61,324 nucleotides of DNA from an uncultured Ruminiclostridium sp. Lineage in GTDB: Bacteria; Bacillota; Clostridia; Oscillospirales; Ruminococcaceae. How positions within the stretch are numbered: position 1 is the first letter of the stretch; every line of letters starts with the position of its first letter. Under the pieces are notes generated by a model. That model was not told the DNA's origin and did no database searches. It saw only the letters and a list, made by a program, of their open reading frames with translations. The translations under genes were made by a program, and so were the position numbers. Below are positions 28,942 to 61,142 of this stretch, piece by piece. Location of the stretch: assembly GCA_949878745.1 (NCBI GenBank), contig CATLBH010000009.1:1-61324 (forward strand), read 5' to 3'.

Positions 28942-29544
28942 TCAAAGGGTGGCGGGTTTTCATAAAAGAGCAAGCCTTATTAGGAGCAATTACATAAAAA
29001 ACACAACATACTGCGGGAGCAGTCCAGCACAGCCCGTGCAAAAATAAATTGTAAAAAGGAACCGACTTTCAATAAAATCCTTTGTCTCAATATGTTTAAC
29101 TTATTTCAAAAAAATAACGCACACATACCGACAATCCAAATCGCAATAGCCGGACTATCCACTCTCACTGATACTAATCTTTGGCCAGATTATAGACAAA
29201 AAAATGTTGACCAAAGATTAGTATGAGCGACAGCCCGCTTTTATTATCACTCCCGCTATGCGCGATTTGTCTTTACCGCTATATGTCGCGTTATTTTTAC
29301 AAGCTGTTATAAAAATGTCTATAAAAAAACTGCTATCAAGCAATAAAAAGCGCTGAAAACAACCTTTTTACAGCCTATATAGACCCTTAATTTCCTTATT
29401 TAAGCTTTTTTATGTCTGACCCCGTGCATTTTGGGGACTTTGTCCCCGTCCTTCGGACTCCCCTACTTCCCTTTCGGTGTCCGAAAGGGAAGCGGAAAGG
29501 ACATTGCGTCGCTTCGCTCCTTTTTTCTTTTTTTTGGATTGCCG
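28942..29544. other. Intergenic region with repeats only
   Basis: No gene is supported. The stretch contains the single-hairpin palindromic element at 29171-29224 and, at about 29430-29494, two short hairpins (GGGGACTTTGTCCCC, and CTTCCCTTTCGG with its complement CCGAAAGGGAAG) that match a hairpin repeat also seen near 58285. Short frames across it look accidental. Confidence 0.5.
29171..29224. repeat. ATACTAATC palindromic element, single-hairpin copy (54 bp)
   Basis: The ends ATACTAATCTTTGG and CCAAAGATTAGTAT are perfect inverted repeats around a loop containing TTATAGACAAA. It is the shortest member of the family described at 31424, 51824 and 61029 and equals only the first hairpin of those. 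Confidence 0.85.
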
Positions 29545-29916
29545 TCAGCTCATTTTGTCACCGCGCTTAAAGCATCTCGCCACAATAAGGCCGAACACCA
29601 CCGCCGCCGTAAGTCCGGCGGCTCCCGCAGTAAAACCGCCTGTAAACGCGCCTAACAATCCGTCCTCCTGAACTGCCTGCTTTACCCCCTTAGCCAATGT
29701 ATAACCGAATCCCGTCAAGGGTACCGTCGCGCCCGCCCCCGCAAAATCCACAAGCGGCTCATATACTCCGCATCCGCCCAATACCACGCCCGCCATTACG
29801 TAAGTTACAAGAATACGCGCGGGAGTAAGCTTTGTAAGATCAATAAGAAGCTGCCCTATAAGACAGAACCCCCCGCCTATCACAAAGGCCCAGAAATATT
29901 CCATAAATGTTTCCAT
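29545..29916 (-). CDS. spoVAE: Stage V sporulation protein AE
   Basis: A 123-residue membrane protein (start ATG at 29916; a TTG at 29928 directly abuts AAAGGA and is less likely). Hydrophobic segments WAFVIGGGFCLIGQLLIDL and ILVTYVMAGVVLGG, the conserved GAGATVPLTGFGYTLAKGV, and a final segment AGLTAAVVFGLIVA match SpoVAE. With SpoVAC and SpoVAD it belongs to the channel complex that moves dipicolinic acid into the forespore and releases it at germination. It is the last gene of the spoVACDE cluster; spoVAD ends 23 bases before. Confidence 0.93.
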   Translation of the reverse strand: METFMEYFWAFVIGGGFCLIGQLLIDLTKLTPARILVTYVMAGVVLGGCGVYEPLVDFAGAGATVPLTGFGYTLAKGVKQAVQEDGLLGAFTGGFTAGAAGLTAAVVFGLIVARCFKRGDKMS

Positions 29917-29939
29917 ATTTATAACCAATCCTTTCTGTT

Positions 29940-30950
29940 TTAAAACGCCGAAATATGCACAGCGTGGCTTATACCGGGAATACTTTCCCCCTGCTGCACT
30001 ATGGTCGGGGACATCAGCGCGCCGGTAGCCGCGAATAAAACGTTTTTCAGATTACCCTTGGCAATCTGCGGCAGAATGTATCCGCAAAGCACCGATGCGC
30101 TGCACCCGCAGCCCGATCCACCCGCGTGTACGTCCTGTTTTTTCAGGTCGTACAGCATAAGTCCGCAGTCATTGTGCTTTTCCGATATATCCACATTCTC
30201 TTTCCGGAACAATTCTATCAGAATGTCGCTGCCCACTTTCCCCAAATCACCCGTCAATATAAGATCAAAAGCCTCTATACTCTGCCCCATATTGGCAAGG
30301 TGGCGGGAAATCGTGTCGTGAGCGGCTTCCGCCATGGCGGCGCCCATATTGTTGGCGTCGGTAACGCCCATATCCTTGATTTTCCCCACCGTTACCGCTT
30401 TTACATAAGGCGGTGCTCCGTGAGGGGATACTATTGCGCAGCCCGCGGCCGTGGCTGTCCACTGAGCGGTGGGAGTGCGCTGTCCGCCGTAGTTAACGGG
30501 AAGCCTGAACTGTCTTTCGGCGGAACAGAAATGGGAGGAAGTCACCGCCGCCGCGTTTATCGCCGCCCCGCTGTCCACAAAAACGGAAGCCAGGCCAAGG
30601 CTTTCCGCCATGGTTGAACATGCTCCGAATAAGCCGAAAAACGGTATACTGGTGTCCCGCGCCCCGTAAGCGGAAGCTACGCATTGATTCAAAAGGTCGC
30701 CCGCAAACATAAAATCCATATCGCTTTCCGAAAAATTCCCCTTGCTGAGGGCATTGGTGAAGGCGTACTGCTGAAGCTTGCTCTCGCTTTTTTCCCAGCT
30801 GCTTTCCCCCAAGGTCACGTCCTCGGAAATATAGTCGAAGTATTCCGCCAAAGGCCCTTCCCCCTCCTTTTTACCTACCGCGGAAGCGTAAGAGGAGATG
30901 GTCGGAGCGGACTGAAGGTTTATCGTACCGTCTTTTATAATATTTGCCAT
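29940..30950 (-). CDS. spoVAD: Stage V sporulation protein AD
   Basis: A 336-residue soluble protein with the thiolase-like fold of SpoVAD, the subunit that binds dipicolinic acid at the inner spore membrane. Typical segments are GPLAEYFDYISEDVTLGE, FAGDLLNQCVASAYGAR, FFGLFGACSTMAESL and GSGCGCSASVLCGYILP. AAAGGAGCTAAACA precedes the ATG. It sits between spoVAC (12 bases upstream) and spoVAE on the minus strand. Expression in the forespore under sigma-G is expected from other spore-formers but no sigma-G box was identified with confidence. Confidence 0.95.
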   Translation of the reverse strand: MANIIKDGTINLQSAPTISSYASAVGKKEGEGPLAEYFDYISEDVTLGESSWEKSESKLQQYAFTNALSKGNFSESDMDFMFAGDLLNQCVASAYGARDTSIPFFGLFGACSTMAESLGLASVFVDSGAAINAAAVTSSHFCSAERQFRLPVNYGGQRTPTAQWTATAAGCAIVSPHGAPPYVKAVTVGKIKDMGVTDANNMGAAMAEAAHDTISRHLANMGQSIEAFDLILTGDLGKVGSDILIELFRKENVDISEKHNDCGLMLYDLKKQDVHAGGSGCGCSASVLCGYILPQIAKGNLKNVLFAATGALMSPTIVQQGESIPGISHAVHISAF

Positions 30951-30962
30951 TGTTTAGCTCCT

Positions 30963-31409
30963 TTACTGCATTATTTGAAAAATATAAAGAATTATCCCGT
31001 AAACCACAGAGGTAAGAATTCCGTATACTATTACGGGCCCCGCTATAATGAACATTTTTGCGGCGGTGCCCAATATAAAGCCCTCGGTTTTGAATTCGAG
31101 AGCGGGAGCGACCACGGAGTTGGCAAAGCCCGTTATGGGCACTAAGGTTCCCGCGCCGCCGTGCTTTGCTATTTTGTCGTAAAGCTTAAGTCCCGTGAGA
31201 AGCGCGCTCAGAAAAACAAGGGTTATGGAGGTTACGGAACGGGCATGAAGCTCGGTCATACCCAAATAGGTGTAGAGATTAAAAAGGGCCTGTCCCAGAC
31301 AGCAGATCAAGCCGCCTATAACAAAGGCTTTGGGTAAGGTTAGATACATCTTTGTGTTAGGCGAATATTTTTTGGTTAATTTATCGTATTCGTTATTGGT
31401 CATTTTCAT
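30963..31409 (-). CDS. spoVAC: Stage V sporulation protein AC
   Basis: A 148-residue integral membrane protein. The N-terminal DKLTKKYSPNTKMYLTLPKAFVIGG and the central GGAGTLVPITGFANSVVAPALEFKTEGF are diagnostic for SpoVAC, which forms the mechanosensitive dipicolinate channel in the spore inner membrane. Four or five hydrophobic segments are visible. The start at 31409 has AAAGGATACGATT upstream; an ATG two codons later is possible. It is the first gene of spoVACDE. Its upstream region is occupied by nested palindromic elements, starting only 15 bases before the ATG. Confidence 0.95.
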   Translation of the reverse strand: MKMTNNEYDKLTKKYSPNTKMYLTLPKAFVIGGLICCLGQALFNLYTYLGMTELHARSVTSITLVFLSALLTGLKLYDKIAKHGGAGTLVPITGFANSVVAPALEFKTEGFILGTAAKMFIIAGPVIVYGILTSVVYGIILYIFQIMQ

Positions 31410-31423
31410 AATCGTATCCTTTC

Positions 31424-31631
31424 ATACTAATCTTTAATCATATTTTAGACGAAGTCTGAAATATGATTAATACTAATCCCTTTTAAAACTGTTGTATTAG
31501 TGCTTTGGGTGCAATCCCTTTTTAATCTGTGTGTATTTCGTCAGTTTAAAAAGGGATTGGTATAAAGATTACACCCGAAACACTAATCTTTGGTCAACAT
31601 TTTTGTCTATAATCCGACCAAAGATTAGTAT
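31424..31631. repeat. ATACTAATC palindromic element interrupted by a second copy
   Basis: The outer element has terminal inverted repeats ATACTAATCTTTAATCA at 31424 and TGACCAAAGATTAGTAT-type at 31631. Without the insert it would be 114 bases, the same size as the copy at 61029-61142 and closely similar in sequence. It consists of two hairpins joined by a linker that reads GATTAGTGTTTCGGGTG on the minus strand. It fills most of the gap between spoVAC and rplQ. Confidence 0.85.
31470..31563. mobile_element. Nested 94-bp palindromic element
   Basis: A second element with 22-base terminal inverted repeats (ATACTAATCCCTTTT and AAAAGGGATTGGTAT at the ends) is inserted into the left hairpin of the outer element, between ATGATTA and AAAGATTACACCC. 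The insertion point is next to a TA dinucleotide. It carries the same linker, GTGCTTTGGGTGCAATC. No coding sequence is present, so movement would need an enzyme supplied in trans. Confidence 0.75.
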
Positions 31632-31711
31632 CACATATATTTCTGTAAAATCGACTTTTATCATATTTTTTCTTTTTTTTCCCCAAATATACTACATACA
31701 AGAAAACATAT

Positions 31712-31751
31712 AAAAAAACAGACCGCCTTTTTTTCAAAAGCAGTCCGTTTT
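31712..31751 (-). terminator. Terminator of the ribosomal superoperon
   Basis: On the minus strand ACGGACTGCTTTT pairs with AAAAGGCGGTCTGT and is followed by a run of seven T. It lies 15 bases past the rplQ stop codon. Confidence 0.85.
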
Positions 31752-31765
31752 TCTTTTTAAACCAA

Positions 31766-32098
31766 TTAAACCAACTCAATAATAGCCATCTCGGCTGCGT
31801 CGCCGCGGCGGGGACCCGTCTTGATTATCCTTGTATATCCGCCGTTAACGTCCTTATACTTGGGAGAAATTTCGTCAAACAGCTTTTTGCTGACTTCCTC
31901 CTTGGTAATGTAAGCGAATACCTGGCGCTTGCTGTGAAGGTCGGTGTTCTTTCCGAGGGTTATCATCTTCTCGGCTTCGCTTTTTACTTCCTTGGCTCTG
32001 GTAACAGTGGTCTCTATCTTGCCGTTTTCCAGCAAAAATGTCACCATCGCTCTGAGCATCGCTTTTCTATGATCGCTGGTTCTTCCCAGTTTTCTCAT
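31766..32098 (-). CDS. rplQ: 50S ribosomal protein L17
   Basis: A 110-residue L17, beginning [20 protein letters not shown] as in nearly all bacteria and ending [10 protein letters not shown]. It binds domain III of 23S rRNA near the tunnel exit. It is the last gene of the alpha operon, 85 bases after rpoA, and is followed by a strong terminator. Confidence 0.98.
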
Positions 32099-32183
32099 TG
32101 GCTTATACTCCTTTCCGTACAGAGTTTGTTTCCCTCACCGGCGCGTCTTTTTTCACGCACCCCTCGGAAAACCTGATCGTAGG

Positions 32184-33140
32184 TCATTCCTCCGGCTCCG
32201 CAAGGTCAAAGCCCAGTGAATTAAGCTTTGCTCTCACCTCGTCAAAGGATTTCTTGCCTAAGTTGCGTACCTTCATCATCTCGTCGGGGGACTTGGTGAT
32301 AAGATCCTCAACCGTATTGATGTTGGCGCGCTTAAGGCAGTTGAAGGAACGCACCGAAAGCTCCAGATCCTCGATGGTCATTTCGAGAACCTTGTCCTTG
32401 CTCTTGTCGTCCTTTTCAACCATAAGCTCGGGCTGGTTAGCCTCGTCGGACAGCTCGACAAATAGCTGCAAATGCTCGCAAAGTACCTTTGCCGCATAGC
32501 TTACCGCTTCCTTGGCGGAAATGGTTCCGTCCGTCCACACCTCTATGATGAGCTTGTCAAAGTCGGTGCGCTGTCCCACACGGGTGTTTTCAACAGAATA
32601 GTTTACCTTAAGAACAGGTGTGTAAATGCTGTCAACCGCAATTATTCCTATGGGCGGCTGTACCATTTTAGACTTGTTCTTTTCAGCACTTACATAACCT
32701 CTGCCTCTGTCAAAAGTAAGCTCCATATAGAGCTTGGCGCCTGCCGTGAGGGTGGCGATGTGCATTCCGGGATCGAGTATCTCTATCTCGCTGTCCGTCT
32801 TAATATCTCCTGCCAGTACCTCACATTCGCCGTTTGCCTCAATGTACACCGTCTTGGGGCTTTCGCCGTACATTTTGGCTATTAAACCTTTAATATTCAG
32901 AATTATTTCGGTTACGTCTTCCTTAACTCCGGGGATAGTGGAAAATTCATGCTGAACCCCGTCGATTTTCACGCTCGTAACCGCGACTCCGGGCAAAGAG
33001 GAGAGCAATACACGCCTCAGGCTGTTGCCCAGCGTGTTGCCGAAACCGCATTCCAACGGCTCTAAGGTAAACATTCCGTATTTACCGTCGGGCTTGAGCT
33101 TCACGGTTTCTATTTCCGGCTTTTCAATTCTTTCAAGCAT
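32184..33140 (-). CDS. rpoA: RNA polymerase alpha subunit
   Basis: A 318-residue alpha subunit. The start at 33140 has AGGAGGGTTACAGT just upstream; the frame continues 20 codons further without family similarity. The N-terminal domain (about 1-228) dimerizes and starts polymerase assembly ([30 protein letters not shown]). A flexible linker leads to the C-terminal domain (about 245-310), which has the helix-hairpin-helix [19 protein letters not shown] used for UP elements and activators. It is preceded by a 250-base gap after rpsD. Confidence 0.97.
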
Positions 33141-33370
33141 ACTGTAACCCTCCTGCTGTTCGGGATCCTCCGCCTCGAAGAACCGAAACGGGAGAATCAT
33201 ATATTGTTTTGCTCAGGGGCTTCCGCCTTAACGCGTCTCACAAAACGCGCAAGTGACAGAAAATATCGGGCGTTTCCGCCCCGATTAATTTTAAATTACG
33301 ATAACTCGATTGTAAATTAAAAATAACCGCACCATAGTTATTCTCGTCCGTTTCCCGCTGTTTTCCGAAA

Positions 33371-33393
33371 AATAGCGTTTTTTCCGCGCTATT
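33371..33393 (-). terminator. Weak terminator-like hairpin between rpsD and rpoA
   Basis: On the minus strand AATAGCG, a 9-base loop and CGCTATT are followed by TTT. The hairpin overlaps the rpsD stop codon and could lower transcription into rpoA. The stem is short, so the call is tentative. Confidence 0.35.
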
Positions 33394-33988
33394 ACTTGGA
33401 ATACAATTCGATTACGAGCTGCTCTTCGATCTCGAAGTCAAGCTCGTCTCTCTGAGGAAGGCGAGTAACAACCGCGCTGGAGGCTTCCTTGTTAAGGTCC
33501 AACCAAACGGGAATAAGTCTGCCGTTGGTAGCTTCCGCGATCTGAGCAAATTTGGGGCTCTTCTTGCTTTTTTCGGAAAGAGCCACAACATCGCCGGGCT
33601 TTACTCTGTAGGAGGGAATGTCGACTCTCTTGCCGTTTACGGTGAAGTGACCGTGTCCCACAAGCTGACGGGACTCACGGCGGGTGATCGCCAGACCCAT
33701 TCTGAATACAACGTTGTCAAGACGGGATTCGAGAAGCTTTATAAGGTTTTCACCGGCAACGCCGTCTTCCTTGATGGCCATTTCATAATAATGATGGAAC
33801 TGCTTTTCAAGAACGCCGTAAATGAATTTCAGCTTCTGCTTCTCCTTAAGCTGCATTCCGTATTCGGAAACCTTCTTGCGGGGATTTCCGTTGCCCTTTC
33901 TGTTTGTTTCCTTGCTGTAGCCCAAAACCGCGGGGCTTATTCCCAGTGCCTTGCATCTCTTAAGCACAGGTGTTCTATCTACTGCCAT
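33392..33988 (-). CDS. rpsD: 30S ribosomal protein S4
   Basis: A 198-residue S4 starting at MAVDRTPVLKRCKALG (33988, with AAAGAAAGGAATATATA upstream); the frame runs further upstream but without family similarity. The S4 RNA-binding domain is visible at LESRLDNVVFRMGLAITRRESRQ and VNGKRVDIPSYRVKPGD. S4 starts 30S assembly by binding the 5' domain of 16S rRNA. The zinc Cys cluster of some S4 proteins is absent (one Cys only), so this is the C-minus form. Confidence 0.97.
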   Translation of the reverse strand: MAVDRTPVLKRCKALGISPAVLGYSKETNRKGNGNPRKKVSEYGMQLKEKQKLKFIYGVLEKQFHHYYEMAIKEDGVAGENLIKLLESRLDNVVFRMGLAITRRESRQLVGHGHFTVNGKRVDIPSYRVKPGDVVALSEKSKKSPKFAQIAEATNGRLIPVWLDLNKEASSAVVTRLPQRDELDFEIEEQLVIELYSK

Positions 33989-34091
33989 TATATATTCCTT
34001 TCTTTCGCAAAAAACCGAACGGCTCGGTTTTTCCGACGTTTGTTTATGTTGTATCGGTTTTACCGACACCGAGCAACGACGCTCGGTAAAA

Positions 34092-34496
34092 CTATACGCG
34101 TCTTCTCTTGGGAGGACGGCATCCGTTGTGAGGGATGGGGGTTACATCCTTGATCATTCTTACCTCGAGACCTGCCGCGGACAGCGCTCTGATAGCCGCT
34201 TCACGTCCCGCGCCGGGACCCTTTACGTATACCTCAACGGTCTTAAGGCCGTGCACCATTGCCGCCTTTGCCGCCGTTTCGGCCGCCGATTGAGCCGCAT
34301 AGGGGGTGGACTTTCTGTTGCCTCTGAAGCCCAGTCCGCCCGCGCTTGCCCATGAAAGGGTGTTGCCCTGAAGGTCGGTTATAGTAACGATCGTATTGTT
34401 AAAAGTCGACTGGATATGCGCCGAACCGTTTTCGATGTTCTTGCGGTCGCGGCGGCGAAGTCCTGCCTTTTTAACATTAGCTTTGTTCCCTGCCAT
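34092..34496 (-). CDS. rpsK: 30S ribosomal protein S11
   Basis: A 134-residue S11 of the platform. Typical segments are [32 protein letters not shown] and the C-terminal [16 protein letters not shown]. The stop codon is TAG at 34094-34092 and the protein ends exactly where the family ends, which shows that TAG is a real stop in this organism. It lies 24 bases after rpsM. Confidence 0.98.
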
Positions 34497-34520
34497 TTAT
34501 TAGCTTCCTTTCTGTAAAAA

Positions 34521-34889
34521 TTACTTCTTCTTGTTAGCGATGGTCTTTGCGGGACCCTTGCGGGTTCTCGCGTTGGTCTTTGTTCTCTGACCTCTTACGG
34601 GAAGACCCTTGCGGTGACGAACGCCGCGGTAGCAGTTAATTTCAACCAAACGCTTGATGTTGAGAGCGACTTCGCGTCTGAGGTCGCCTTCCACACGATA
34701 GTTCGCGTCGATAACCTCACGGATCTTCGCTTCCTGATCCTCGGTAAGGTCTCTGACGCGGGTATCGGGGTCAACGCCCGCCGCCGCGAGAATGTCATTT
34801 GCGGATTTTCTGCCGATACCGTACACATAGGTCAAGCCGATTTCAACGCGCTTTTCCTTGGGCAGATCCACACCAGCGATTCTTGCCAT
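34521..34889 (-). CDS. rpsM: 30S ribosomal protein S13
   Basis: A 122-residue S13 starting [21 protein letters not shown] and ending in the basic tail [21 protein letters not shown], which contacts the P-site tRNA. The helix-two-turns-helix core [16 protein letters not shown] is present. It follows rpmJ by 57 bases in the alpha operon. Confidence 0.98.
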
Positions 34890-34946
34890 ACTTTAAACCT
34901 TTCCTTTCCTGTGAAGGAGCCGGCTCCTTCAATTATCCAACGGGTC

Positions 34947-35060
34947 TCAGCCCTGTCTTTGTTTATGCTTGGGATCCTTGCAGATCACCATAACTCTGCC
35001 CTTGCGCTTGATTACCTTGCACTTGTCGCACATGGGCTTTACTGAAGGTCTTACTTTCAT
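34947..35060 (-). CDS. rpmJ: 50S ribosomal protein L36
   Basis: A 37-residue L36, starting [20 protein letters not shown] and ending HKQRQG. It has the zinc-binding pattern C-x2-C-x12-C-x4-H, so it is the zinc-containing form. It lies between infA and rpsM, the usual place. Confidence 0.97.
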
Positions 35061-35100
35061 TTCGTTACATCCTTTCTGACACGCCAACGGTTTTCGGGTT

Positions 35101-35319: not shown

Positions 35320-35378
35320 GCTATGATCATTCCTTTCCTGTGGGTTGTTAAGCCGCATCTTCTAAAGTAATCGTATCA

Positions 35379-35708: not shown

Positions 35709-35746
35709 ATGATTTTCGCCCGGACAATCACTTTCTCTTCGCTTTC

Positions 35747-37171: not shown

Positions 37172-38485
37172 TTATTCCAGGAATCCTTTATGATGACGCA
37201 TCATCATCTGGCTTTCCAGCGAGCGTACTGTTTCAAGCGAAACGCCGACTACGATAAGAATCGTGGTGCCGCCCAGGGAAAGTCCCTGTATGCCGCTGAG
37301 ATTCTGGAAAATGATCGGGAAAATTGCTATGAAGCCGAGGAAGATAGCGCCGATAAGCGTAACCTTCGACAGCGAATTGTTGATAAAGTCCGCCGTGGGC
37401 TGTCCGGGTCTGTAGCCGGGGATAGCTCCGTTGTTCTTCTTAAGATCGTTGGCGATTTGAATGGGGTTATACTGAATAGCCACATAGAAGTAGTTGAAGC
37501 CGATTATCAAAAGGAAGTAAAGAACCGCGTAAAGCCAGCTCGAAGTGCTGAACAGTCTTACGAAGCCTTCCCAGAAATCATGGCCGCTGGTACCGTCGCC
37601 GCTGATTCCGAAGAAAAAGCAGATTGTGGAAGGAAGAGACATAATGGACATGGCAAAGATTATCGGCATAACGCCCGACATTGCCACCTTAATGGGAATA
37701 TAAGAGGACTGTCCTCCGTACATCTTTCTTCCCACAACGCGCTTGGCGTACTGAACGGGGATTTTTCTCTCGGCGTTTGTCATTAAAACAACCAGAGTGA
37801 TCATTCCCACATAAATAATAAGAATAATGGGGACGAGAATGGCGTTCTTCATACCTCCCGCGGAAATGGTTCTGAACAAACCGATCACGTCGCCGGGAAT
37901 ACGGGATACGATACCCGCGAAAAGTATCATTGAAATACCGTTTCCGATGCCCTTTTCGCTTATCTGATCGCCTAACCAGATAATCAGCGACGCGCCCGCC
38001 ACGAAGCAGCCGACTATTACTATCGCCGAAATAACGCCGTCAAAGCCATTGGTATACTTTACAACACCGCCGTTTCTGAGGGTGATGTAAAACGCCACCG
38101 CCTGGAATATAGCCAAACCGAGAGCAACCAGCTTGTTGATCTTGTTCAGCTTCTTCCTTCCTTCGTCGCCCTCCTTGGCGAGCCTCTCCAGCGGTTTAAT
38201 GGCAACCGTCAGGAGCTGGATAATGATTGACGCGTTAATATAAGGTGTGATCGACATTGCGAACAAGGTACCGTTGCTGAGCGAACCGCCGGTCATCTGA
38301 TCCCAGTAGGAAAAGAGGTTTCCGCCCCCCTGATCCATACCCAGAACCGTGGATATCTTGTCTGTGTCTAAGAACGGAACGAAGATACTTGCTCCCAAAC
38401 GGAAAATCAATATGATAAAAAGCGTGTAGAGGATCTTTTTTCTTAAGTCAGCGAGCTTCCAAGCGTTTCGGAAAACTTCAAACAT
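37172..38485 (-). CDS. secY: Protein translocase subunit SecY
   Basis: A 437-residue polytopic membrane protein with ten membrane segments, the channel for secreted and membrane proteins. Diagnostic stretches are MTGGSLSNGTLFAMSITPY, GDQISEKGIGNGISMI, the cytoplasmic loop with AKRVVGRKMYGGQSSYIPI, and AIPGYRPGQPT. Its ATG overlaps the rplO stop (TGATG), so translation is coupled. secE and secG are not in this window. Confidence 0.97.
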   Translation of the reverse strand: MFEVFRNAWKLADLRKKILYTLFIILIFRLGASIFVPFLDTDKISTVLGMDQGGGNLFSYWDQMTGGSLSNGTLFAMSITPYINASIIIQLLTVAIKPLERLAKEGDEGRKKLNKINKLVALGLAIFQAVAFYITLRNGGVVKYTNGFDGVISAIVIVGCFVAGASLIIWLGDQISEKGIGNGISMILFAGIVSRIPGDVIGLFRTISAGGMKNAILVPIILIIYVGMITLVVLMTNAERKIPVQYAKRVVGRKMYGGQSSYIPIKVAMSGVMPIIFAMSIMSLPSTICFFFGISGDGTSGHDFWEGFVRLFSTSSWLYAVLYFLLIIGFNYFYVAIQYNPIQIANDLKKNNGAIPGYRPGQPTADFINNSLSKVTLIGAIFLGFIAIFPIIFQNLSGIQGLSLGGTTILIVVGVSLETVRSLESQMMMRHHKGFLE

Positions 38486-48247: not shown

Positions 48248-48622
48248 TTTCGTAAACTCCTTTCTAAGTGTTATGAAAGCACCTGCATAAATGCAGTACG
48301 GAGCGTGTTTTCCATTTACACGGTGCCGAGTGTTTCACCTTATCCCGTAAAACGCGTTCGGGCTCTTCACATCGGGGGGTATCCGCCTCTGACGAACCCT
48401 TCCCCGTTCTCCCGAACGAAGCGATTATTTAAGTACGCGTAAGTACACGGAATACATAAAACGCCAAACGCCGCGGCAATTAACACGTTCTTTCGCCCGA
48501 TTTAAAACCGAACATACTCCGCCGAAATTCCCGATTTTTTCAACCGCAACCTTCGGCATCAACGCATTGTCAAGCAGCTGCCGCACATACTCGGACAAGA
48601 AGTCCGCAGTCGTGCAGTAATT
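48248..48622 (-). promoter_or_regulatory. Long leader of the S10 superoperon
   Basis: About 370 bases of transcribed leader precede rpsJ. It contains inverted repeats CGTTCGGG (48355-48362) and CCCGAACG (48411-48418) that close a loop of about 48 bases. No gene is seen. A regulatory structure for feedback by a ribosomal protein is plausible, but no known leader class was recognized. Confidence 0.45.
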
Positions 48623-51728: not shown

Positions 51729-51823
51729 TTTTGCGGGAATAAACAAAGTTATCGCCGCTTTTTTTGAAAAAACAAAAATTAAAAAATATAATAAAAACTC
51801 GTATTTTGTCGAAAATGCTCATA

Positions 51824-51928
51824 ATACTAATCTTTGGTCAAGTTATAGACAAATAATATGGATGACCAAAGATTAGTGCTTTGGGTGCAATCTTTAATCA
51901 AGTCTACAACTTGATTAAAGATTGGTAT
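51824..51928. repeat. ATACTAATC palindromic element, two-hairpin copy (105 bp)
   Basis: The ends ATACTAATCTTTGGTCAAGTT and (as complement) ATACCAATCTTTAATCAAGTT form an 18 of 21 match. Hairpin 1 (TTTGGTCA...TGACCAAA) and hairpin 2 (TTTAATCAAG...CTTGATTAAA) are joined by the linker GTGCTTTGGGTGCAATC at 51876-51892. Confidence 0.85.
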
Positions 51929-52036
51929 AAAAAGGAAAAAGCCGCGGTTATCTTCCGTTACCCTCTTCATTTTACCGGACTCGGCCGAAAAACAGCTCTT
52001 ATACCGATTAAAAAGGTTCTAACGTTTTTTAGAGTA

Positions 52037-54214: not shown

Positions 54215-56167
54215 TTATTCAAATATTAAAGGCTGATCGCCGTTATCCTCCGCGGTTTCCGTGCCGCCGTAATCGCCCCCGCCGATATCGGTCTCGGAAG
54301 AGGTTTCCTCACCAACGCCGTCGGTTTCGTCGGTTTCGTCGGTTTCGTCGGTTTCCCATTCCATTGCGTTAAAGGTGGTTGTGGTTTCCTCCGGCTTCAC
54401 GGCGCCGTATACCACTACCTCCTCGCTGGCGGCCACCATAACGTCCTCGCCGATTTCTTTGTTACAGCGGTAAACAAAGCCCTCCTCGATCTCGTCCGTT
54501 ATTTCCTCTTCTATACGGTACTTTATCCCCATATCCGACAGCTCCTTAACGTAATCGTCTACGTTTTTGTCCGTATAATCGGGCAGGGGGAGCTTTTCGG
54601 GGCCTTTGCTGACGACTACGCCGATCTCCGTGCCCGACTGAACCACCGTTCCTTCGGCTACGCTCTGGCTTATAATCTGTCCCGATTTATATTCTCCGCT
54701 GAAGTCGAAGGTGGCTTGGAAAATAAGATAGGAATACTGCGGGTTGGTGCTTACGGTGGTGTAAAAAGCCCCTTGGAAATTCGGGAGCACATAGCCGCCG
54801 CCCGGCACGGAAGCGGTGGTTTCCGAAACGGGTTCGGAAGCCTCCGGGGCGGTTATCTGCGGGGTGGTTGACGGGGGACGCGTGGCGGTTGTCGTCGTTT
54901 CTTCCTCTCCCCCCTCGGAGGAGGTAACGATCATCGCTATGATAAAAGCGAGTATTATTACTCCCAGAACGGAAGAAACCGCGATAAACTTTATCTTGTC
55001 CCTGTCGGTTTTTCTTTTTCTCTTTTTCTGCTTTTTAACGTTTCCCGACGAATGAGGGGAAGAGCTTTTTCTGTTGCTGTTGCCGTTTCCGTTTTTCATC
55101 GGCTCGGAGGAATGCGGCTGTCCGTTATGACCGGCCATACCTCCGCCGCTTTTGGGTGAAGGACGGGGAACGGGCATCGTTATTTCGCTGGAATATTCCT
55201 CGGCGGGAACGGGCTGTTCAAAAAGACGGTCCACAAACTCGGTCACGGTGGAAATCCTTTCCTCCGAGTCAAGTCTCATACCCCTCATTATAACGTCCGA
55301 AACGTTTTTGGGCACATGTCGGCTTATAAGCATCGGGTCGGTAAGAGCGTCCTCAACAAGCCTGTCGGGAGCGGAAGGGGGCGTAACGCCGGTAAGACAG
55401 CGGTAAAGCACCGCCGCAATCCCGTAAACGTCCGTCCAGCTCCCGTTTCTTTTGGAGCTGGAATACAGCTCGGGAGCCGCATAGCCGCCGAAAACCTCAT
55501 AGCCTATATCGCTGTCGGCGGTATGAGCGGCGCTTATGGAAAAGCCTATAAGCTTAAGCTCGTTTTTTTCGCTCACGAAAATGGTTGAAGTGCTTATGCC
55601 GCGGTGGATTATCCCCAGACCGTGAAGCATACTCAAAGCGGTAAGCACGGGCGGGAAAAGCTCCTTCACCTGTTCCCACGTCATTATTTCGCCGCAGTTG
55701 GTGAGATAAGCCTTAAGGCTTATCCCCCCTATATATTCCATTACCGCATAGGCGGTGTTATTCTGGGTGAAAACGTCCAGAACGGGCTGTACACATCGGA
55801 TATTCGACGAGCGCATAAGGGTGGTGTGCAGCTCGATAAATTCCGCAAGATAGGTTTTATAAAGAGGGAGCTTGTTGGAGCGCACCGAAATTATTTCCTC
55901 GTCTCTCTCTCTTACGCAAAGAGTGTCGGGCATATACTCGCGCACGGTCACCTTGCGTCCCGTTTGGGTGTCGAAGCCTATATACAAAGCGGATTCGCCG
56001 CTGTAGCCGATCAGCTTTCCCACTATGTAACGCTCCGCCAGAAACGTTTTGGGAGCAAGATATGAGGAAATGTAGGATTCGGTATCGAACAAGCCGCATA
56101 GGGGACAGGTTCCGTGGTCGTTAAGCTCGCCCATACAGCTCATACACAGATTTGTTTCTTTTCTCAT
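54215..56167 (-). CDS. Zinc-ribbon/kinase-like/PASTA membrane protein, predicted pseudokinase
   Basis: A 650-residue protein built as: Cys4 ribbon (C8, C11, C21, C24), a Ser/Thr kinase-like domain (about 45-320), a basic linker, a membrane helix (about 393-420), two PASTA-like repeats outside, and an acidic tail. The kinase fold is well kept (VMEYIGGISLKAYL, GGYAAPELYS, TDVYGIAAVLYRCLTG), but the catalytic residues are not: the beta-3 Lys is Arg76 (VTVREYMP), the HRD Asp is Gly190 (HRGISTS), and the DFG Asp is Gly208 (LIGFSIS). It is therefore predicted inactive. PASTA repeats bind muropeptides or beta-lactams in PknB-type kinases, so a wall-sensing scaffold is plausible. The tail holds (ETD)n, coded by four 9-base repeats at about 54318-54353. 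A promoter lies at 56202-56230. Confidence 0.9.
   Translation of the reverse strand: MRKETNLCMSCMGELNDHGTCPLCGLFDTESYISSYLAPKTFLAERYIVGKLIGYSGESALYIGFDTQTGRKVTVREYMPDTLCVRERDEEIISVRSNKLPLYKTYLAEFIELHTTLMRSSNIRCVQPVLDVFTQNNTAYAVMEYIGGISLKAYLTNCGEIMTWEQVKELFPPVLTALSMLHGLGIIHRGISTSTIFVSEKNELKLIGFSISAAHTADSDIGYEVFGGYAAPELYSSSKRNGSWTDVYGIAAVLYRCLTGVTPPSAPDRLVEDALTDPMLISRHVPKNVSDVIMRGMRLDSEERISTVTEFVDRLFEQPVPAEEYSSEITMPVPRPSPKSGGGMAGHNGQPHSSEPMKNGNGNSNRKSSSPHSSGNVKKQKKRKRKTDRDKIKFIAVSSVLGVIILAFIIAMIVTSSEGGEEETTTTATRPPSTTPQITAPEASEPVSETTASVPGGGYVLPNFQGAFYTTVSTNPQYSYLIFQATFDFSGEYKSGQIISQSVAEGTVVQSGTEIGVVVSKGPEKLPLPDYTDKNVDDYVKELSDMGIKYRIEEEITDEIEEGFVYRCNKEIGEDVMVAASEEVVVYGAVKPEETTTTFNAMEWETDETDETDETDGVGEETSSETDIGGGDYGGTETAEDNGDQPLIFE
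54318..54353 (-). repeat. 9-bp tandem repeats coding ETD
   Basis: GTCGGTTTC repeats four times, encoding (ETD)4 in the C-terminal tail of the PASTA protein. It may vary in copy number. Confidence 0.75.
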
Positions 56168-56201
56168 ATTTTAATGAAATCTCTTTCCGTTTTTTATTTT
56201 A

Positions 56202-56230
56202 ATTTTACCTCAAAAAACCCCCTCTGTCAA
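56202..56230 (-). promoter_or_regulatory. Promoter of the PASTA pseudokinase gene
   Basis: On the minus strand a perfect TTGACA (56230-56225) and TAAAAT (56207-56202) are spaced by 17 bases, 35 bases before the ATG. Confidence 0.75.
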
Positions 56231-56259
56231 GTAAATAAAATTTCGAAGGGCGATTTTTG

Positions 56260-56288
56260 TTGACAAACAAAGGGTTTGGTGGTATATT
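56260..56288 (+). promoter_or_regulatory. Promoter of the 106-residue protein gene
   Basis: TTGACA at 56260-56265 and TATATT at 56283-56288 are spaced by 17 bases; it is divergent from the pseudokinase promoter. A direct repeat GGTTACAAAATAGTTAC follows at 56342-56358, in the leader. Confidence 0.75.
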
Positions 56289-56377
56289 TATTGTAAAGGC
56301 GAAAATTTTTTGAGGGACTCTTTTTACATAATTATCAAAGTGGTTACAAAATAGTTACAAAAAATCGGGAGGACGGT

Positions 56378-56698
56378 ATGTTTTTTAAAAAGAAAGACAA
56401 AAACTGTATGACCGCCGAACAGCTCAGAGGGCTGGACAAAAGGCAGCTGAAATATGTTACCCAAAGGGATTACGAAAAAGGCGGGGAGAAAAAAATAGGA
56501 GACCAAGGCGCGGTTAACGTAACGGGAAACGATTTCACCATAGTCTGCTTCGGAAAAACGGTTTTCAGCGCGCCCATAAACGAGATAAAAGCGGGCGAGC
56601 TTATGGATCTCTCCGGCTTCACCGCCGCTCATACGGGAAAGGACGGGGAGAAAATATGCGTGGTGGCAAGGTACAGCGAGGGAAAAGTCAAATTATAA
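56378..56698 (+). CDS. Small basic cytoplasmic protein of unknown function
   Basis: A 106-residue protein without signal peptide or membrane segment. It begins MFFKKKDKNCMTAEQLRGLDKRQLKYVT and has a beta-rich C-terminal half (GNDFTIVCFGKTVFSAP, EKICVVARYSEGKVKL). I recognize no family. CGGGAGGACGGT precedes the ATG. Its promoter is back-to-back with that of the PASTA pseudokinase, so the two may be related in function, but this is only an inference from position. Confidence 0.75.
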   Translation: MFFKKKDKNCMTAEQLRGLDKRQLKYVTQRDYEKGGEKKIGDQGAVNVTGNDFTIVCFGKTVFSAPINEIKAGELMDLSGFTAAHTGKDGEKICVVARYSEGKVKL

Positions 56699-56733
56699 CG
56701 ATCAATAAACGGGCAATAAATTCTCGAAATCTA

Positions 56734-56762
56734 TTGACAATCCCTCTTATTTATGATAAAAT
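56734..56762 (+). promoter_or_regulatory. Promoter of metK
   Basis: TTGACA at 56734-56739 and TAAAAT at 56757-56762 are spaced by 17 bases, 50 bases upstream of the riboswitch. Confidence 0.75.
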
Positions 56763-56810
56763 ATTTTTTGTAAGAACATTTTTAAAAAATTTCTTACACA
56801 ACAATTTACG

Positions 56811-56928
56811 ATCCTTATCCAGAGCAGCCGAGTGACAGGCACGTTGACGCTGCAGCAACCGTCCGACCTTTCGGAAAAGGTGCTACTTCCTGCGCCTATG
56901 GAATATTTATAGGCGGAAGATGAGGGGT
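56811..56928 (+). ncRNA. SAM (S-box family) riboswitch
   Basis: The closing stem CTTATC (56814) pairs with GATGAG (56924). Inside are the S-box features: AGAGCAGCCGAGTGACAGGC, CTGCAGCAACC, AAGGTGCTACTTCCTGC and the P4-like hairpin GCCTAT/ATAGGC. The GCAACC and GTGC-x-ACTTCCTGC boxes match SAM-I aptamers. It lies between the promoter and metK and is followed by a terminator, so high SAM should end transcription early. Confidence 0.9.
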
Positions 56929-56937
56929 GCTGAATAT

Positions 56938-56965
56938 CAACGCCCCGATAGGAGGGCGTTTTTTT
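56938..56965 (+). terminator. Riboswitch-controlled terminator
   Basis: AACGCCCC and AGGGCGTT pair and are followed by TTTTTTT, just after the SAM aptamer and 84 bases before metK. It is the expression platform. Confidence 0.85.
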
Positions 56966-57048
56966 GTTGGTACATTTCACGTAGGGGGAAAAGGCAAAGT
57001 CAAAACCCGTTCAATGCCCCCAAAAAAACAGAAAGGAAAGTTTTAAAA

Positions 57049-58230
57049 ATGGCAAAACGTTTATTTACCTCGGAAAGCGTTACCGAGGGTCACCCCGACA
57101 AAATATGCGACAGAATAAGCGACAGCATTCTGGACGAGCTTTTAAGACAGGACCCCATGAGCAGAGTCGCCTGTGAAACCTGTACCACCACCGGTATGGT
57201 TATGGTTATGGGAGAGATCACCACGGAGGGTTATGTGGATATCCCCAAAACCGTAAGAAACGCGGTAAAGGATATAGGCTATGACAACGCCGCTTACGGC
57301 TTCGACTGCAACACCTGTTCCGTCGTCACCTCCATTGACGAACAGTCCGCCGACATCGCCATGGGCGTCGACAACGCTCTCGAGGGAAGAGAGGAAAACA
57401 AGCTGGATACCGGCGCGGGAGATCAGGGAATGATGTTCGGCTACGCCTGCGACGAAACCCCTGAGCTTATGCCTTTGCCCATATCTCTGGCGCACAAGCT
57501 GGCGAAACGTCTCACGGAGTGCAGAAAAAGCGGCGAGATACCTTACATTCTTCCCGACGGAAAATCTCAGGTGACCGTGGAGTACGAGAACGACAAGCCC
57601 GTCCGCGTGGACACCGTGGTAATTTCCACCCAGCATAAGGCAAGCGCGACACTTTTACAGATAAGGGCGGACATTGTGGAAAAGGTAATAAAGCCCACCA
57701 TTCCCGCCAATCTGTTGGACAACGAGACGAAAATATACGTCAACCCCACCGGGCGCTTCGTTATCGGAGGTCCTCAGGGGGACAGCGGCCTCACCGGAAG
57801 AAAGATAATCGTCGACACCTACGGCGGCTACGCGAGACACGGCGGCGGCGCTTTCTCGGGAAAGGATCCCACCAAGGTTGACCGCTCCGCCGCATATGCG
57901 GCGAGACACGTGGCCAAAAACATAGTGGCGGCGGGTCTGGCGAAACGCTGCGAGGTACAATTGGCTTACGCCATAGGCGTGGCCAAGCCCGTTTCCGTAT
58001 TGGTGGACACCTTCGGCACGGGAAAATACGGCGACGACAAAATCGAAAAAGCCGTGGAAAAGGTATTCGACCTGAGACCCGCCGCCATTATCGAAGCCCT
58101 TGAGCTCAGGAAGCCCCAGTACGCCGCCCTTTCCGCCTACGGACATATGGGTCGCGAGGATCTCGGGGTAAAGTGGGAGGAAAGGAATAAGACCGAGGAG
58201 CTGTTGAAGGCGGTTGAAGAGATGGTGTAA
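57049..58230 (+). CDS. metK: S-adenosylmethionine synthetase
   Basis: A 393-residue enzyme that makes SAM from methionine and ATP. The ATG at 57049 has AGAAAGGAAAG upstream; the frame continues into the riboswitch, but that part is not translated. Motifs are [66 protein letters not shown] with catalytic residues, and [20 protein letters not shown] (the P-loop-like phosphate site). It is regulated by the SAM riboswitch and ends in a long hairpin terminator at 58453-58495. Confidence 0.98.
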
Positions 58231-58264
58231 GCTGCAATTAAAAGGCTGTTTAACAAAATAAAAA

Positions 58265-58344
58265 GCGGCGAAGCCGCATAATGTCCTTTTCGCTTCTTTT
58301 TCGGACACCGAAAAGGAAGTGGGGTGTGGGGCGAAGCCCCACTG
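58265..58344. repeat. Cluster of GC-rich hairpin repeats
   Basis: Short perfect hairpins with GAA loops lie at 58265-58277 (GCGGCGAAGCCGC) and about 58328-58344 (GTGGGGC GAA GCCCCAC). Between them is CTTCTTTTTCGGACACCGAAAAGGAAG, the same hairpin type as near 29466 and related to those at 12437 and 60870. Confidence 0.6.
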
Positions 58345-58452
58345 CCACAAGGCGAGAGTAAAAAACAAACTCATAAGTCTGTCGCGTAAAAACAATACGT
58401 TAGAAGCGGGCGAAGCCGCCGCTTCGGGATAAAAACAAAAAACTTACGGTAT

Positions 58453-58495
58453 AAACCCGTTAAATCCGTTTCAAAACGAGATTTGGCGGGTTTTT
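58453..58495 (+). terminator. Terminator downstream of metK
   Basis: AAACCCGTTAAATC pairs with GATTTGGCGGGTTT (two G-U pairs), with an inner CGTTT/AAACG, and is followed by TTTTT. It ends about 260 bases past the metK stop. Confidence 0.75.
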
Positions 58496-58497
58496 AA

Positions 58498-58868
58498 CGT
58501 ATGCTTGTTTTTCTGTACCGAAGCGGCGGCGCAGCCGCGAACGGAGCCGAAGCGATAGCGAAGGCGGAGGGAGCCGACGCGGAGCGATAGCGAAGCGGCG
58601 ACAAATTTTCCGTTAGGAAAATTTGGGCTGCGCCCCCTGCTGTTGGGCAGTTTTGGCGTAGGAGTAGTTTTGACTGATGGGGCGGGTTGCGGAGGGTGAT
58701 AACCGAACATAAGAAAAGTTTTTTATGGGTACGCAATTATTGGCAATAACCGATAGACAATCAAGAAAATGTAACCAAAAAGCTTTATTGGGAGCGGTTA
58801 TACCCTTTGAAAACCCTATTTCCTTTTTGGAGTCCAAAAAAGAAGCAAAATTTTTTTTAAAACGGGTA
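58498..58868. other. Intergenic region with low-complexity repeats
   Basis: Around 58515-58605 GAAGCGATAGCGAAG and GGAGCCGA units recur in GC-rich, imperfect repeats. A short plus-strand frame at 58725-58913 overlaps the promoter region and is probably not a gene. Confidence 0.4.
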
Positions 58869-58897
58869 TTGACAAAGCTGTATAAACTGTATATAAT
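58869..58897 (+). promoter_or_regulatory. Promoter of the GntR/ABC operon
   Basis: Perfect TTGACA (58869-58874) and TATAAT (58892-58897) with a 17-base spacer, 42 bases before the first ATG. Confidence 0.9.
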
Positions 58898-58911
58898 AGA
58901 TATATACAGTT
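58885..58911 (+). promoter_or_regulatory. Inverted-repeat operator overlapping the -10 box
   Basis: An 11-base perfect inverted repeat, AACTGTATATA, five bases, then TATATACAGTT, overlaps the -10 and transcription start. Its position suits self-repression by the GntR-type regulator encoded first in the operon. Confidence 0.8.
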
Positions 58912-58938
58912 GAAATCCAAAAGAAGGGAGGCGGAAGG

Positions 58939-59325
58939 ATGACCGTAATAATCGACAACAAAAGCGGCGCGCCCATATACGACCAAATTTATTCACAGAT
59001 AAAAAACCAGATAATAAGCGGAGCTTTGAAGGAAAACGAAATGCTGCCGTCCATAAGAGGGCTGGCAAAGGATCTGAAAATAAGCTTTGTTACCACCAAG
59101 CGGGCTTATGACGAACTGGAGAGAGAGGGCTTCATATATACGATTCAGGCAAAGGGCTGTTATGTGGCGCCGAAAAACGTCGAACTGCTCCGAGAGGAAA
59201 ACCTGAAACGGATAGAATGTCATATCGAGGAAATAGTACGGCTTTCCGCCGCCTGTAATCTTGTAAAAAACGACATAAAGGAAATGTTGGATTTTGCCTT
59301 TGAAGCGGAAAAAGAGGAGGAATGA
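58939..59325 (+). CDS. GntR-family regulator, YtrA subfamily
   Basis: A 128-residue regulator. Residues 8-75 are the GntR winged helix (SGAPIYDQIYSQIKNQI, LPSIRGLAKDLKISFVTTKR, YDELEREGFIY). The remaining about 45 residues form the short helical C-terminus of the YtrA subfamily, in place of a large ligand domain. The ribosome site is AGGGAGGCGGAAGG. It is the first gene of an operon with the ABC transporter genes, as in other YtrA systems that control exporters answering to cell-wall-active peptides. The inducer is unknown. Confidence 0.9.
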   Translation: MTVIIDNKSGAPIYDQIYSQIKNQIISGALKENEMLPSIRGLAKDLKISFVTTKRAYDELEREGFIYTIQAKGCYVAPKNVELLREENLKRIECHIEEIVRLSAACNLVKNDIKEMLDFAFEAEKEEE

Positions 59326-59327
59326 AA

Positions 59328-60185
59328 ATGACAAACGCTTTGGAAATCAAAAACCTGTCGAAAAGCTTCGGAAGCTTTAAGCTGGACAATGTGAGCCTGA
59401 CGCTGCCAACCGGCTGTATTATGGGACTTATCGGCGAAAACGGAGCGGGAAAGAGCACTCTTATAAAGCTCATTCTCAACATTCTCCATAAGGACAGCGG
59501 AACCGTTACCGTTTTGGGAAGAGACAATACCGACAATATAAGGCTCACAAAAGAGGAAGTGGGTGTAGTCACCGACGAGGTGGGAATCCCCGAATGTCTT
59601 AAGGCGGGACAGGTGGGAAAAATAATGAAGCACACCTTCAAATACTGGGACGAAAAGGCTTTTGAAAATTATCTTATAAAGCTCGACATACCTAAAGACA
59701 AGCAATTCAAGGATTTTTCCCGAGGCAACAAAATGAAGCTGGGAATAGCTGCGGCGCTTTCCCATAACAGCAGGCTTTTGCTGTTGGACGAGGCGACAAG
59801 CGGCCTTGATCCGGTGGTAAGGGACGAGGTGGTGGAAATGCTGAGCGATTTCACCCGCGACGAAGGACATTCCATTCTTATTTCCTCCCACATCGTGAGC
59901 GATCTGGAAAAGCTGTGCGACTATGTTGCCTTCCTTCATAAAGGAAAACTGCTGCTTTGCGAGGAAAAGGACAGACTGACGGAGGAATACTGCGTAGTAC
60001 GCGGCGAAAAAGGAATACTGGCGGGGATCGAGCCCAAGTCAGTGCTCAACAAAAAAGAAACGCCCTATTCGGAAGAGGGGATAGTTTTAAGAAAGGCCGC
60101 CCCGAAAAACGCGTCGGTCAGCCCCGTAAGTATCGAAGAGCTGTTTGTTTATACGGTAAAGGGAGAAAGGAGCGATAGTATATGA
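59328..60185 (+). CDS. ABC transporter ATP-binding protein
   Basis: A 285-residue ATPase. The ATG at 59328 is preferred, since GAGGAGG lies 7 bases upstream; an ATG at 59322 abuts that site. Walker A is GENGAGKSTL, the signature is FSRGNKMKL (degenerate LSGGQ), Walker B LLLLDEATSGLDP, and the H loop ISSHI. The last about 70 residues are an extension of unclear role. It energizes the adjacent ABC-2 type permease, probably for export of a peptide or drug. Its end overlaps the permease start by 4 bases. Confidence 0.93.
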   Translation: MTNALEIKNLSKSFGSFKLDNVSLTLPTGCIMGLIGENGAGKSTLIKLILNILHKDSGTVTVLGRDNTDNIRLTKEEVGVVTDEVGIPECLKAGQVGKIMKHTFKYWDEKAFENYLIKLDIPKDKQFKDFSRGNKMKLGIAAALSHNSRLLLLDEATSGLDPVVRDEVVEMLSDFTRDEGHSILISSHIVSDLEKLCDYVAFLHKGKLLLCEEKDRLTEEYCVVRGEKGILAGIEPKSVLNKKETPYSEEGIVLRKAAPKNASVSPVSIEELFVYTVKGERSDSI

Positions 60186-60805
60186 AAGCGCTTATGCTTA
60201 AGGATTTTTATATGATAAAAAAATACTGCCGTTCTTATTTATTGGTTTTGGCGGTGTTTTCGGCGGTGTCGGTTTTCGATTCCACCTGGCTGCCCTCGGC
60301 GATGTCGCTGCTTTGCGTTATGGCGGCAATGCTGCCCGTTACGCTGATGGCCTATGACGAGCGCAGTCATTGGAACGAGTACTGCGCGGCGCTGCCCTAC
60401 GGAAACGGGGCTTTTGTTTCATCAAAGTATGTTCTGTGCCTTATATGCCAGCTGGCGGTCGCGGCGGTTTTTCTGCTTATCAGAATCATCGGGGGCGGCG
60501 CGGATATGACGGAATTTTTAATAAGCTCCTTCTTAGCAATATGCTGTTCATGCGTTTTCGCTGCGATTACGCTTCCTTTGGTGCTTTGGCTGGGGGTTGA
60601 AAAGGGTCGGGTTCTTTACTATGTGTTCATAGTGATAGGTTTTGCGGCTTCGGGAGCACTTAAGAGCTTGTCAATCAGCGAAAAAGCGGATATAAGAGCG
60701 GTTTTCGACATTCTGGCGGCGGTTCTTCCTATTTTGGCGGCAGCGGCGTTTATTGCGTCCTGGGCAATATCGGTGATTATTTACGGGAAGAAAGAGATAA
60801 GGTAA
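60182..60805 (+). CDS. ABC-2 family transporter permease
   Basis: A 207-residue membrane protein with about six hydrophobic segments (LLVLAVFSAVSVF, AMSLLCVMAAMLPVTLMAY, LICQLAVAAVFLLIRII, FLAICCSCVFAAITLPLVLWL, VLYYVFIVIGFAASGAL, ILAAVLPILAAAAFIASWAISVII). MAYDERSHWNEYCAALP matches ABC-2 permeases found beside YtrA regulators. It starts with AAAGGAG and an ATGA overlap with the ATPase. The substrate is unknown; protection from envelope-active compounds is an inference from the operon type. Confidence 0.88.
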   Translation: MKALMLKDFYMIKKYCRSYLLVLAVFSAVSVFDSTWLPSAMSLLCVMAAMLPVTLMAYDERSHWNEYCAALPYGNGAFVSSKYVLCLICQLAVAAVFLLIRIIGGGADMTEFLISSFLAICCSCVFAAITLPLVLWLGVEKGRVLYYVFIVIGFAASGALKSLSISEKADIRAVFDILAAVLPILAAAAFIASWAISVIIYGKKEIR

Positions 60806-60838
60806 AGCGAAAAACAGCGTATAAGCTCCCCCAACAAA

Positions 60839-60896
60839 GGGACTGTAAATAAACAATCAATTCTGTTTTCGCTTCCTTTTGTGATCCAAAAAGGAA
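60839..60896. repeat. Dispersed hairpin repeat, copy 2
   Basis: About 90 percent identical to 12408-12465: it starts GGGACTGTAAA and ends with the hairpin CTTCCTTTTGTGATCCAAAAAGGAA. It lies just after the ABC operon and may also act as a terminator. Confidence 0.75.
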
Positions 60897-61028
60897 ATAG
60901 GATTACCAAAGAGTCAAAGCCCCTTTGGCAGCTGCCCGTAGAAGTGAAACTCTCGCCGTGGGAGCAAAATTTCGGACGGAGTCCGAAAAGCGTTTGCGTC
61001 GGAGACAGTCGCGAAGCGACAGTCTCTT
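60897..61028. other. Intergenic spacer between repeats
   Basis: GC-richer sequence with short self-complementary pieces (for example GTCGCGAAGCGAC at 61007-61019) but no gene. Confidence 0.4.
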
Positions 61029-61142
61029 ATACTAATCTTTAATCATATTGTAGACGAAGTCGGAAATATAATTAAAGATTACACTCAAAACACTAATCTT
61101 TGGTCAACATTTTTTGTCTATAATCTGACCAAGGATTAGCAT
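61029..61142. repeat. ATACTAATC palindromic element, two-hairpin copy (114 bp)
   Basis: Begins ATACTAATCTTTAATCA and ends GACCAAGGATTAGCAT. It has the same two hairpins and the linker (AGTGTTTTGAGTGTAATC on the minus strand) as 51824-51928 but in the opposite orientation, and closely matches the outer element at 31424-31631. Confidence 0.85.

Follow-up and report, generated by a model that had tools for sequence, protein, structure and literature searches.

A family of two-hairpin miniature transposable elements with TNA target duplications in Ruminiclostridium, probably mobilised by IS630-type transposases

The 61,324-nt stretch analysed here (the window) is part of the genome of an uncultured Ruminiclostridium sp. 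(2.67 Mb in 108 contigs, called G000 below; other G-numbers denote genomes, and L-numbers fetched stretches of DNA). It carries, at four loci, five short palindromic elements, one of them nested inside another. We conclude that these repeats belong to a new family of miniature inverted-repeat transposable elements (MITEs), and that they are likely moved in trans by a lineage of IS630-family transposases present in the host and in some of its relatives. The repeats insert in a transposition-like way with a 3-bp duplication, and insertion sequences (IS) with the same tips exist. What is novel is the TNA duplication in association with an IS630-type partner, together with the two free-armed hairpins joined by a fixed linker; on present evidence, this is not a new kind of system.

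The two-hairpin element reads as follows: the tip TACTA, arm 1, a loop, the inverse of arm 1 ending in AGTG, then YTTYGGGTG and YAAT, arm 2, a loop, the inverse of arm 2, and ATTRGTA. In the window, elements start with TACT (TGCT at one end of the copy at 61030), end with RGTA, and are flanked on both sides by a 3-bp direct repeat, TNA. Copies were collected from several genomes with at most 2 mismatches in the linker, so that the constancy of the linker in this set is partly due to its construction. The set contains 111 two-hairpin copies with distinct flanks, corresponding to 99 distinct sequences. Two of the 111 are mis-parsed, one being a chimeric reading of the nested pair of the window, and the copy at 61030 lies outside the set. 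The left and right flanking 3-mers were identical in 91 of the 111 copies, the two mis-parsed ones being counted as non-identical. TNA was present on both sides in 101 copies, and 91 of these 101 had identical flanks, versus 53.3 expected when right flanks are shuffled. Agreement at the fourth flanking base was found in 30/111. Read along the linker strand, the flanks were TAA/TAA in 65 and TTA/TTA in 21 of the parsed copies, which suggests that the target is used preferentially in one orientation.

Empty sites were then sought by joining the flanks of 186 candidate elements and matching them against the fetched DNA. Six alignments were inspected, and none had a gap at the junction once exactly 3 bp were removed. 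The triplet was TGA in one case (L061 versus L066), TTA in another (L109 of G008 versus L042 of G016), and TAA in the remaining four: the nested element of the window, L022, L067 (the type F element) and L009, for which the empty relative has TAC. Repeats within G000 supplied five of the empty sites and another species the sixth, with identities of 84–96% and single gaps elsewhere in two alignments. A misread TA insertion is ruled out, as the empty sites, TGA and TTA included, need exactly 3 bp.

A search for ends of this type lacking the MITE interior revealed two contig ends of G000 (L067 and L072) where a reading frame begins after TNA-TACTAAAAACC. Matches to PF13358 were obtained in 2 of the 5 genomes tried, at L188 in G000 and at L189 in G001, and the latter is preceded by TTA-TACTAATTG. 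The catalytic piece of L189 scored 141.1 bits against the IS630 profile NF033545 (cut-off 100) and also matched DDE_3, while N-terminal pieces scored 51.9 and 63.2 bits, under this whole-protein cut-off. The partner transposase is of the IS630 family and has N-terminal helix-turn-helix domains. A further IS left end, reached through a match to the N-terminal piece of L189, follows a TNA at L192 in G000, where it is cut off by the contig start; at L193 no such end was seen. Among 295 genomes of the order, two matched the catalytic piece of L189 at E up to 1e-20: the element in L194 is complete, measures 1117 bp, carries TACTAATCTC at either end and lies between TAA and TAA, and the ends of L195 could not be settled. 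L191 is a 1113-bp element with TTA/TTA flanks and one changed tip base. In L189, L191 and L194, two frames meet at an A7 run, a sequence feature that suggests programmed frameshifting. Overall, L191 and L194 share tips and TNA flanks with the MITEs; L067, L189 and L192 share the tip and a nearby box, the arms between the two being different.

This box, ATAGACAAA, lies at offset 20 in the three IS left ends L067, L189 and L192. It is found exactly in 21 of the 99 distinct MITEs, always at offset 19–21, and with at least 7 of 9 matching positions there in 35/99. The left-end box score was 36, compared to a mean of 22.7 and a maximum of 32 in shuffles (six loose clusters).

More distant IS were also inspected. 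Viral contigs gave two related IS pieces, one of which, L213, terminates on visual inspection in the tip TACTAAACTC, with TTA next to it. Among plasmid IS630 copies, two from Paraburkholderia have TTA/TTA flanks, compatible with either TNA or TA, and one from Acidithiobacillus has flanks that fit TA; at two Rhizobium loci clear ends were not found. The fetched stretches were also searched for long elements enclosed by ends of the MITE type; the candidates opened proved to be MITE pairs, half elements or chance pairs.

Several observations weigh against a trans-acting IS630 partner. The right-end box score, 30, is not clearly above chance (shuffle mean 23.2, maximum 31), and the box is missing, with at most 6 of 9 positions, in types C, D, E and H, and likewise in L191. 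Beyond tip and box, the MITE arms match no IS end seen. L188, the sole long PF13358 gene of G000, is not surrounded by ends of this kind. Several MITE-rich genomes yielded no IS, and G016, G008 and G034 had no PF13358 match. The N-terminal piece of L189 matched in only 4 of 71 genomes of the genus, two of which (G017 and G073) have 1 and 3 linker matches. Finally, no empty site was found for any IS copy, and movement was not observed.

In the mechanism that we propose for an IS630-type partner, the transposase would bind the tip region, and also the box in copies that have one, then cut the element at its ends and join these to the target at TNA, with a stagger of 3 bp. In structure, both ends of a MITE are a transposon-like end plus the inverse of that end, an arrangement that gives two hairpins with the constant linker between them.

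The elements of the window are listed in Table 1. An earlier note, made from the letters of the window alone, had pointed to the four loci and their shared ends. All are present, except that the outer A of ATACTAATC and the final T of GATTRGTAT, counted there as ends, are part of the flanking duplication. At 31424-31631 the ends and linker are as described, but what was taken for a single element is a 92-bp element nested in a 111-bp one. The copies at 29171-29224 and 61029-61142 also have the expected ends; the former is a single hairpin devoid of linker, and the latter reads on the minus strand, one of its tips being TGCT and its linker having one mismatch. The note further supposed that ends and linker are what selection or a transposition enzyme recognises, which is only half supported. 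The tips and, in some subfamilies, the box near bp 21 are indeed common to the IS, but the linker was not seen in the IS copies read. The note also suggested looking for empty sites and for an autonomous element with the same ends. Each of the six empty sites found fits exactly 3 bp; as to the second, there are full-size relatives that share the tips and code for IS630-family transposases, but with different arms between tip and box.

Table 1. MITEs of the window and their linkers
Feature	Position	Strand	Flanking triplets or basis
Single-hairpin element, 52 bp, without linker, bears the box ATAGACAAA	29172..29223	+	TGA at 29169-29171 / 29224-29226
Type A two-hairpin element, 111 bp minus insert, split by 31471-31562	31425..31630	-	TCA at 31422-31424 / 31631-31633
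Type C two-hairpin element, 92 bp, nested in type A element 31425..31630	31471..31562	+	TAA at 31468-31470 / 31563-31565
Linker of nested element, 0 mismatches	31496..31516	+	linker pattern match
Linker of interrupted host element, 0 mismatches	31567..31587	-	linker pattern match
Type B two-hairpin element, 103 bp	51825..51927	+	TAA at 51822-51824 / 51928-51930
Linker of type B element, 0 mismatches	51872..51892	+	linker pattern match
Type A two-hairpin element, 112 bp, left-end tip TGCT	61030..61141	-	TTA at 61027-61029 / 61142-61144
Linker of 61030..61141 element, one mismatch	61077..61097	-	linker pattern match

The empty site of the nested element is seen in other type A copies, and its junction is aligned by about 22 distinct places holding an uninterrupted host element (our own count, overlapping loci removed). 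The 21-nt linker pattern matched 4 times in the window with up to 3 mismatches, compared to 0.02 in shuffles. The 9-nt end alone was not significant, with 14 matches at up to one mismatch for 12.0 expected. Folding of four of the elements as single-stranded DNA gave z values of -6.27, -6.19, -10.45 and -6.66. At 58298-58524, the window also holds a piece of another dispersed repeat, which elsewhere in the genome is a landing site for these MITEs.

The 99 distinct sequences are 66–138 nt long (138 being the chimeric parse), and their longest stop-free stretch is 40 codons. In most of the pairs listed, some 14–20 of the outer 21 bp agree between the terminal inverted repeats, and 80 of the 99 sequences carry one of eight Y-combinations of the linker. 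Average-linkage clustering gave ten clusters, eight of them without mis-parses (the L138 cluster is a mis-parse, and the L071/window cluster includes the chimeric one). The linker, by which copies were gathered, is common to clusters with unrelated arms and to different species. In the cluster representatives, 11–12 of the first 12 pairs of hairpin 2 are kept; for hairpin 1, the same holds in seven representatives, and 9–10 pairs are kept in three short type C-like ones. The same arm position switches pair type between clusters, for instance C-G, T-A and A-T. Stems differ between subfamilies and yet stay paired, and the covariation noticed earlier is confirmed. Within clusters, the distinct non-consensus states were 16 compensated, 13 GT, 8 AC and 17 other. 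Covarying stems are no proof of selection on structure, and we did not accept them as such, because template-switch correction of palindromes yields the same pattern. The arms drift in sequence and still remain paired, which probably reflects upkeep at the DNA level, with one arm corrected on the template of the other or with ends that have to be palindromic, more than RNA folding.

Single hairpins without linker also have intact duplications. They are probably deletion products, formed between the direct repeats GATTAGTG and GATTRGTA. Other element types were also noted. The type F element (L067:4958-5120, 157 bp) has the same tips and TAA/TAA flanks around a different interior without linker, its empty site being in L062; L040 and L133 have ends that resemble its ends. 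Inside MITEs of the present family, at L071:734-1016, L073:16480-16742 and L068:14241-14462, lies another palindromic element (GGAACCGCTGATTAAATC...), some 165 bp long. It has an apparent 4-bp duplication, CTAA/TTAG, its target being the conserved CTAA of the MITE inner ends.

A genome-wide search showed that the repeats are not just four chance loci, a possibility that the earlier note had left standing. With up to 2 mismatches, the linker matched 102+107 times in G000, i.e. 209 matches, versus 1+2, i.e. 3, for the reversed pattern; for the type C end pattern, the numbers were 100+103 versus 0+0. At up to one mismatch, the linker matched in 20 of the 71 genomes of the genus and in none of the remaining 51. 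Eight genomes had at least 5 matches (G000, 183; G016, 116; G001, 93; G060, 38; G008, 30; G081, 12; G093, 9; G034, 5), and twelve more had 1–3. The contexts of matches were read in G000, G001, G016, G008 and G034, not in G060, G081 and G093. With zero mismatches, 6 of 394 genomes of the order matched: G000, G034, and four with one match each. No element was present in the sequence inspected around the single exact matches of G396, G238, G272 and G203, nor around the linker matches of G047, G059, G014 and G004. An exact linker scan of a genome contig collection returned at least 57 stretches, including a Cytophagaceae contig (L163) with no element around the match. Neither a blastn search of 31424-31631 against plasmids and phages nor a linker scan of viral contigs gave any result.

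Gene context was examined in a 455-kb sample, made of 393,876 bases of stretches plus the window, taking pairs of ends with identical TNA flanks. Of the 35 element pairs, 32 lay for less than 30% within open reading frames (ORFs), as opposed to 14.3% of random placements. Flanking genes were both on the minus strand in 14 cases and both on the plus strand in 2, convergent in 11 and divergent in 4; in tandem contexts, elements had the same orientation as the genes in 7 cases and the opposite one in 6. Nine of the 35 pairs have no linker, and at least one of these, within an ORF at position 37848 of the window, is a pair due to chance. The window also contains an S10-Clostridia ribosomal protein leader (48490-48570, minus strand), a SAM riboswitch (56812-56926, plus strand), and an ORF of 3910 aa with many short direct repeats (12782-24514, minus strand).

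Could the repeats rather be maintained for a role as structured RNA or as a site to which a protein binds, with the linker as functional core and spread as a secondary matter? Compensated arms and a linker constant across subfamilies would fit, as would the 5 GT and 0 AC states of hairpin 1, its first pair being T.G in 97/99, and the excess of convergent (11) over divergent (4) contexts. But hairpin 2 has 8 GT and 8 AC states, orientation in tandem contexts is split 7 to 6, the linker is missing from the 51 genomes mentioned above, and no Rfam family reached its gathering score, the two weak matches (E 0.39 and 0.65, at one locus) being chance-like. The case for a function on one strand, as RNA, is weak; the processed RNA envisaged in the earlier note gets little support, and we consider a maintained RNA or protein site unlikely. 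The MITE-like reading, which the same note favoured, agrees with the duplications, the empty sites, the nested insertion, the absence of coding capacity, the mostly intergenic location, the patchy distribution between species and the existence of IS630 elements with the same tips.

Other transposases were considered as movers of the MITEs. The IS5/IS1031 group is associated with 3-bp TNA duplications, the very duplication found here, and G000 has six PF01609 matches. However, no TACT/AGTA ends bracket these six loci, nor four loci in three of four relatives, a negative in which contigs below 3 kb could not be read and PF13359, PF13586, rve and other transposase families were not searched. One PF01609 locus, L032, is bounded by ends of its own, with a TA duplication of 2 bp. 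Movement by an IS5/IS1031-type enzyme is thus very unlikely. The arrangement of two hairpins with a spacer also recalls REPIN elements, moved by a hairpin-reading Y1 (IS200/RAYT) transposase, and in G008 a type G left half element (L105:2393) adjoins a Y1 transposase fragment (2416-2541), the only one found in that genome. Against this stand the 3-bp duplications and empty sites, as Y1 enzymes are not known to make target duplications, and the lack of PF01797 matches in G001, G016 and G034; a REPIN-like origin is highly unlikely. Both DDE_Tnp_1 (PF01609) and Y1 (PF01797) were rejected as mobilisers, no element with the present ends being found at their loci.

Prokaryotic MITEs were reviewed in 2024 (PMC10969869). 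One of the close known systems is the repeat unit of pneumococcus (RUP), a MITE of 107 bp that is linked to IS630-Spn1 and has TA as its target (PMC2229807, PMC3049150). It resembles our repeats in its size of about 100 bp, its roughly 100 copies, its non-coding nature and its ends tied to an IS630-family element, but differs by its TA targets, the present repeats having a 3-bp TNA and two hairpins with a constant linker. The CIR repeats of Caulobacter and relatives are likewise intergenic, about 110 bp long, and made of two arms and a linker (PMC2229807). They have a conserved GANTC site and no known transposase, whereas here tips, duplications and an IS partner are found, and GANTC is present in only 6/99 elements. 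Pneumococcal BOX and SPRITE are also short structured repeats, and BOX is modular, with end repeats and target duplications; its boxA-boxB(n)-boxC build, compared with ISSpn2 ends in PMC3049150, is different from ours, a comparison made by description and not by sequence. Lastly, IS630 and ISY100 resemble the partner found here in their type of transposase, which has helix-turn-helix domains at its N-terminus; they use TA as target and duplicate these 2 bp (PMC2170065). This does not hold for the present elements: the MITEs duplicate 3 bp, and of two IS copies, for which no empty site was found, one lies between TAA triplets and the other between TTA triplets. Because published IS630 elements duplicate a 2-bp TA, the TNA duplication departs from the IS630 type; Tc1/mariner elements, too, are described with TA targets and duplications of 2 bp. 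Searches of an open literature library listed no paper recognised as a description of this MITE family, in keeping with the earlier note, which knew of no named one, or of a TNA duplication for IS630.

A bolder interpretation, which we put forward only tentatively, is that a lineage of the IS630/Tc1-mariner superfamily has switched from a 2-bp stagger at TA to a 3-bp stagger at TNA, the MITEs being two-hairpin modules whose arms are free, kept paired by template correction, and which are recognised by tip, box and linker. If this were true, a bacterial MITE would have in its linker a new internal site that serves control or recognition. For annotation, the family gives a name to a repeat often found at contig ends in these draft genomes. 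With many related palindromes per genome, it could serve to separate arm co-evolution, template-switch correction and recognition by the transposase. A lineage making 3-bp TNA duplications would moreover reveal what determines target choice and stagger in the IS630/Tc1-mariner superfamily.

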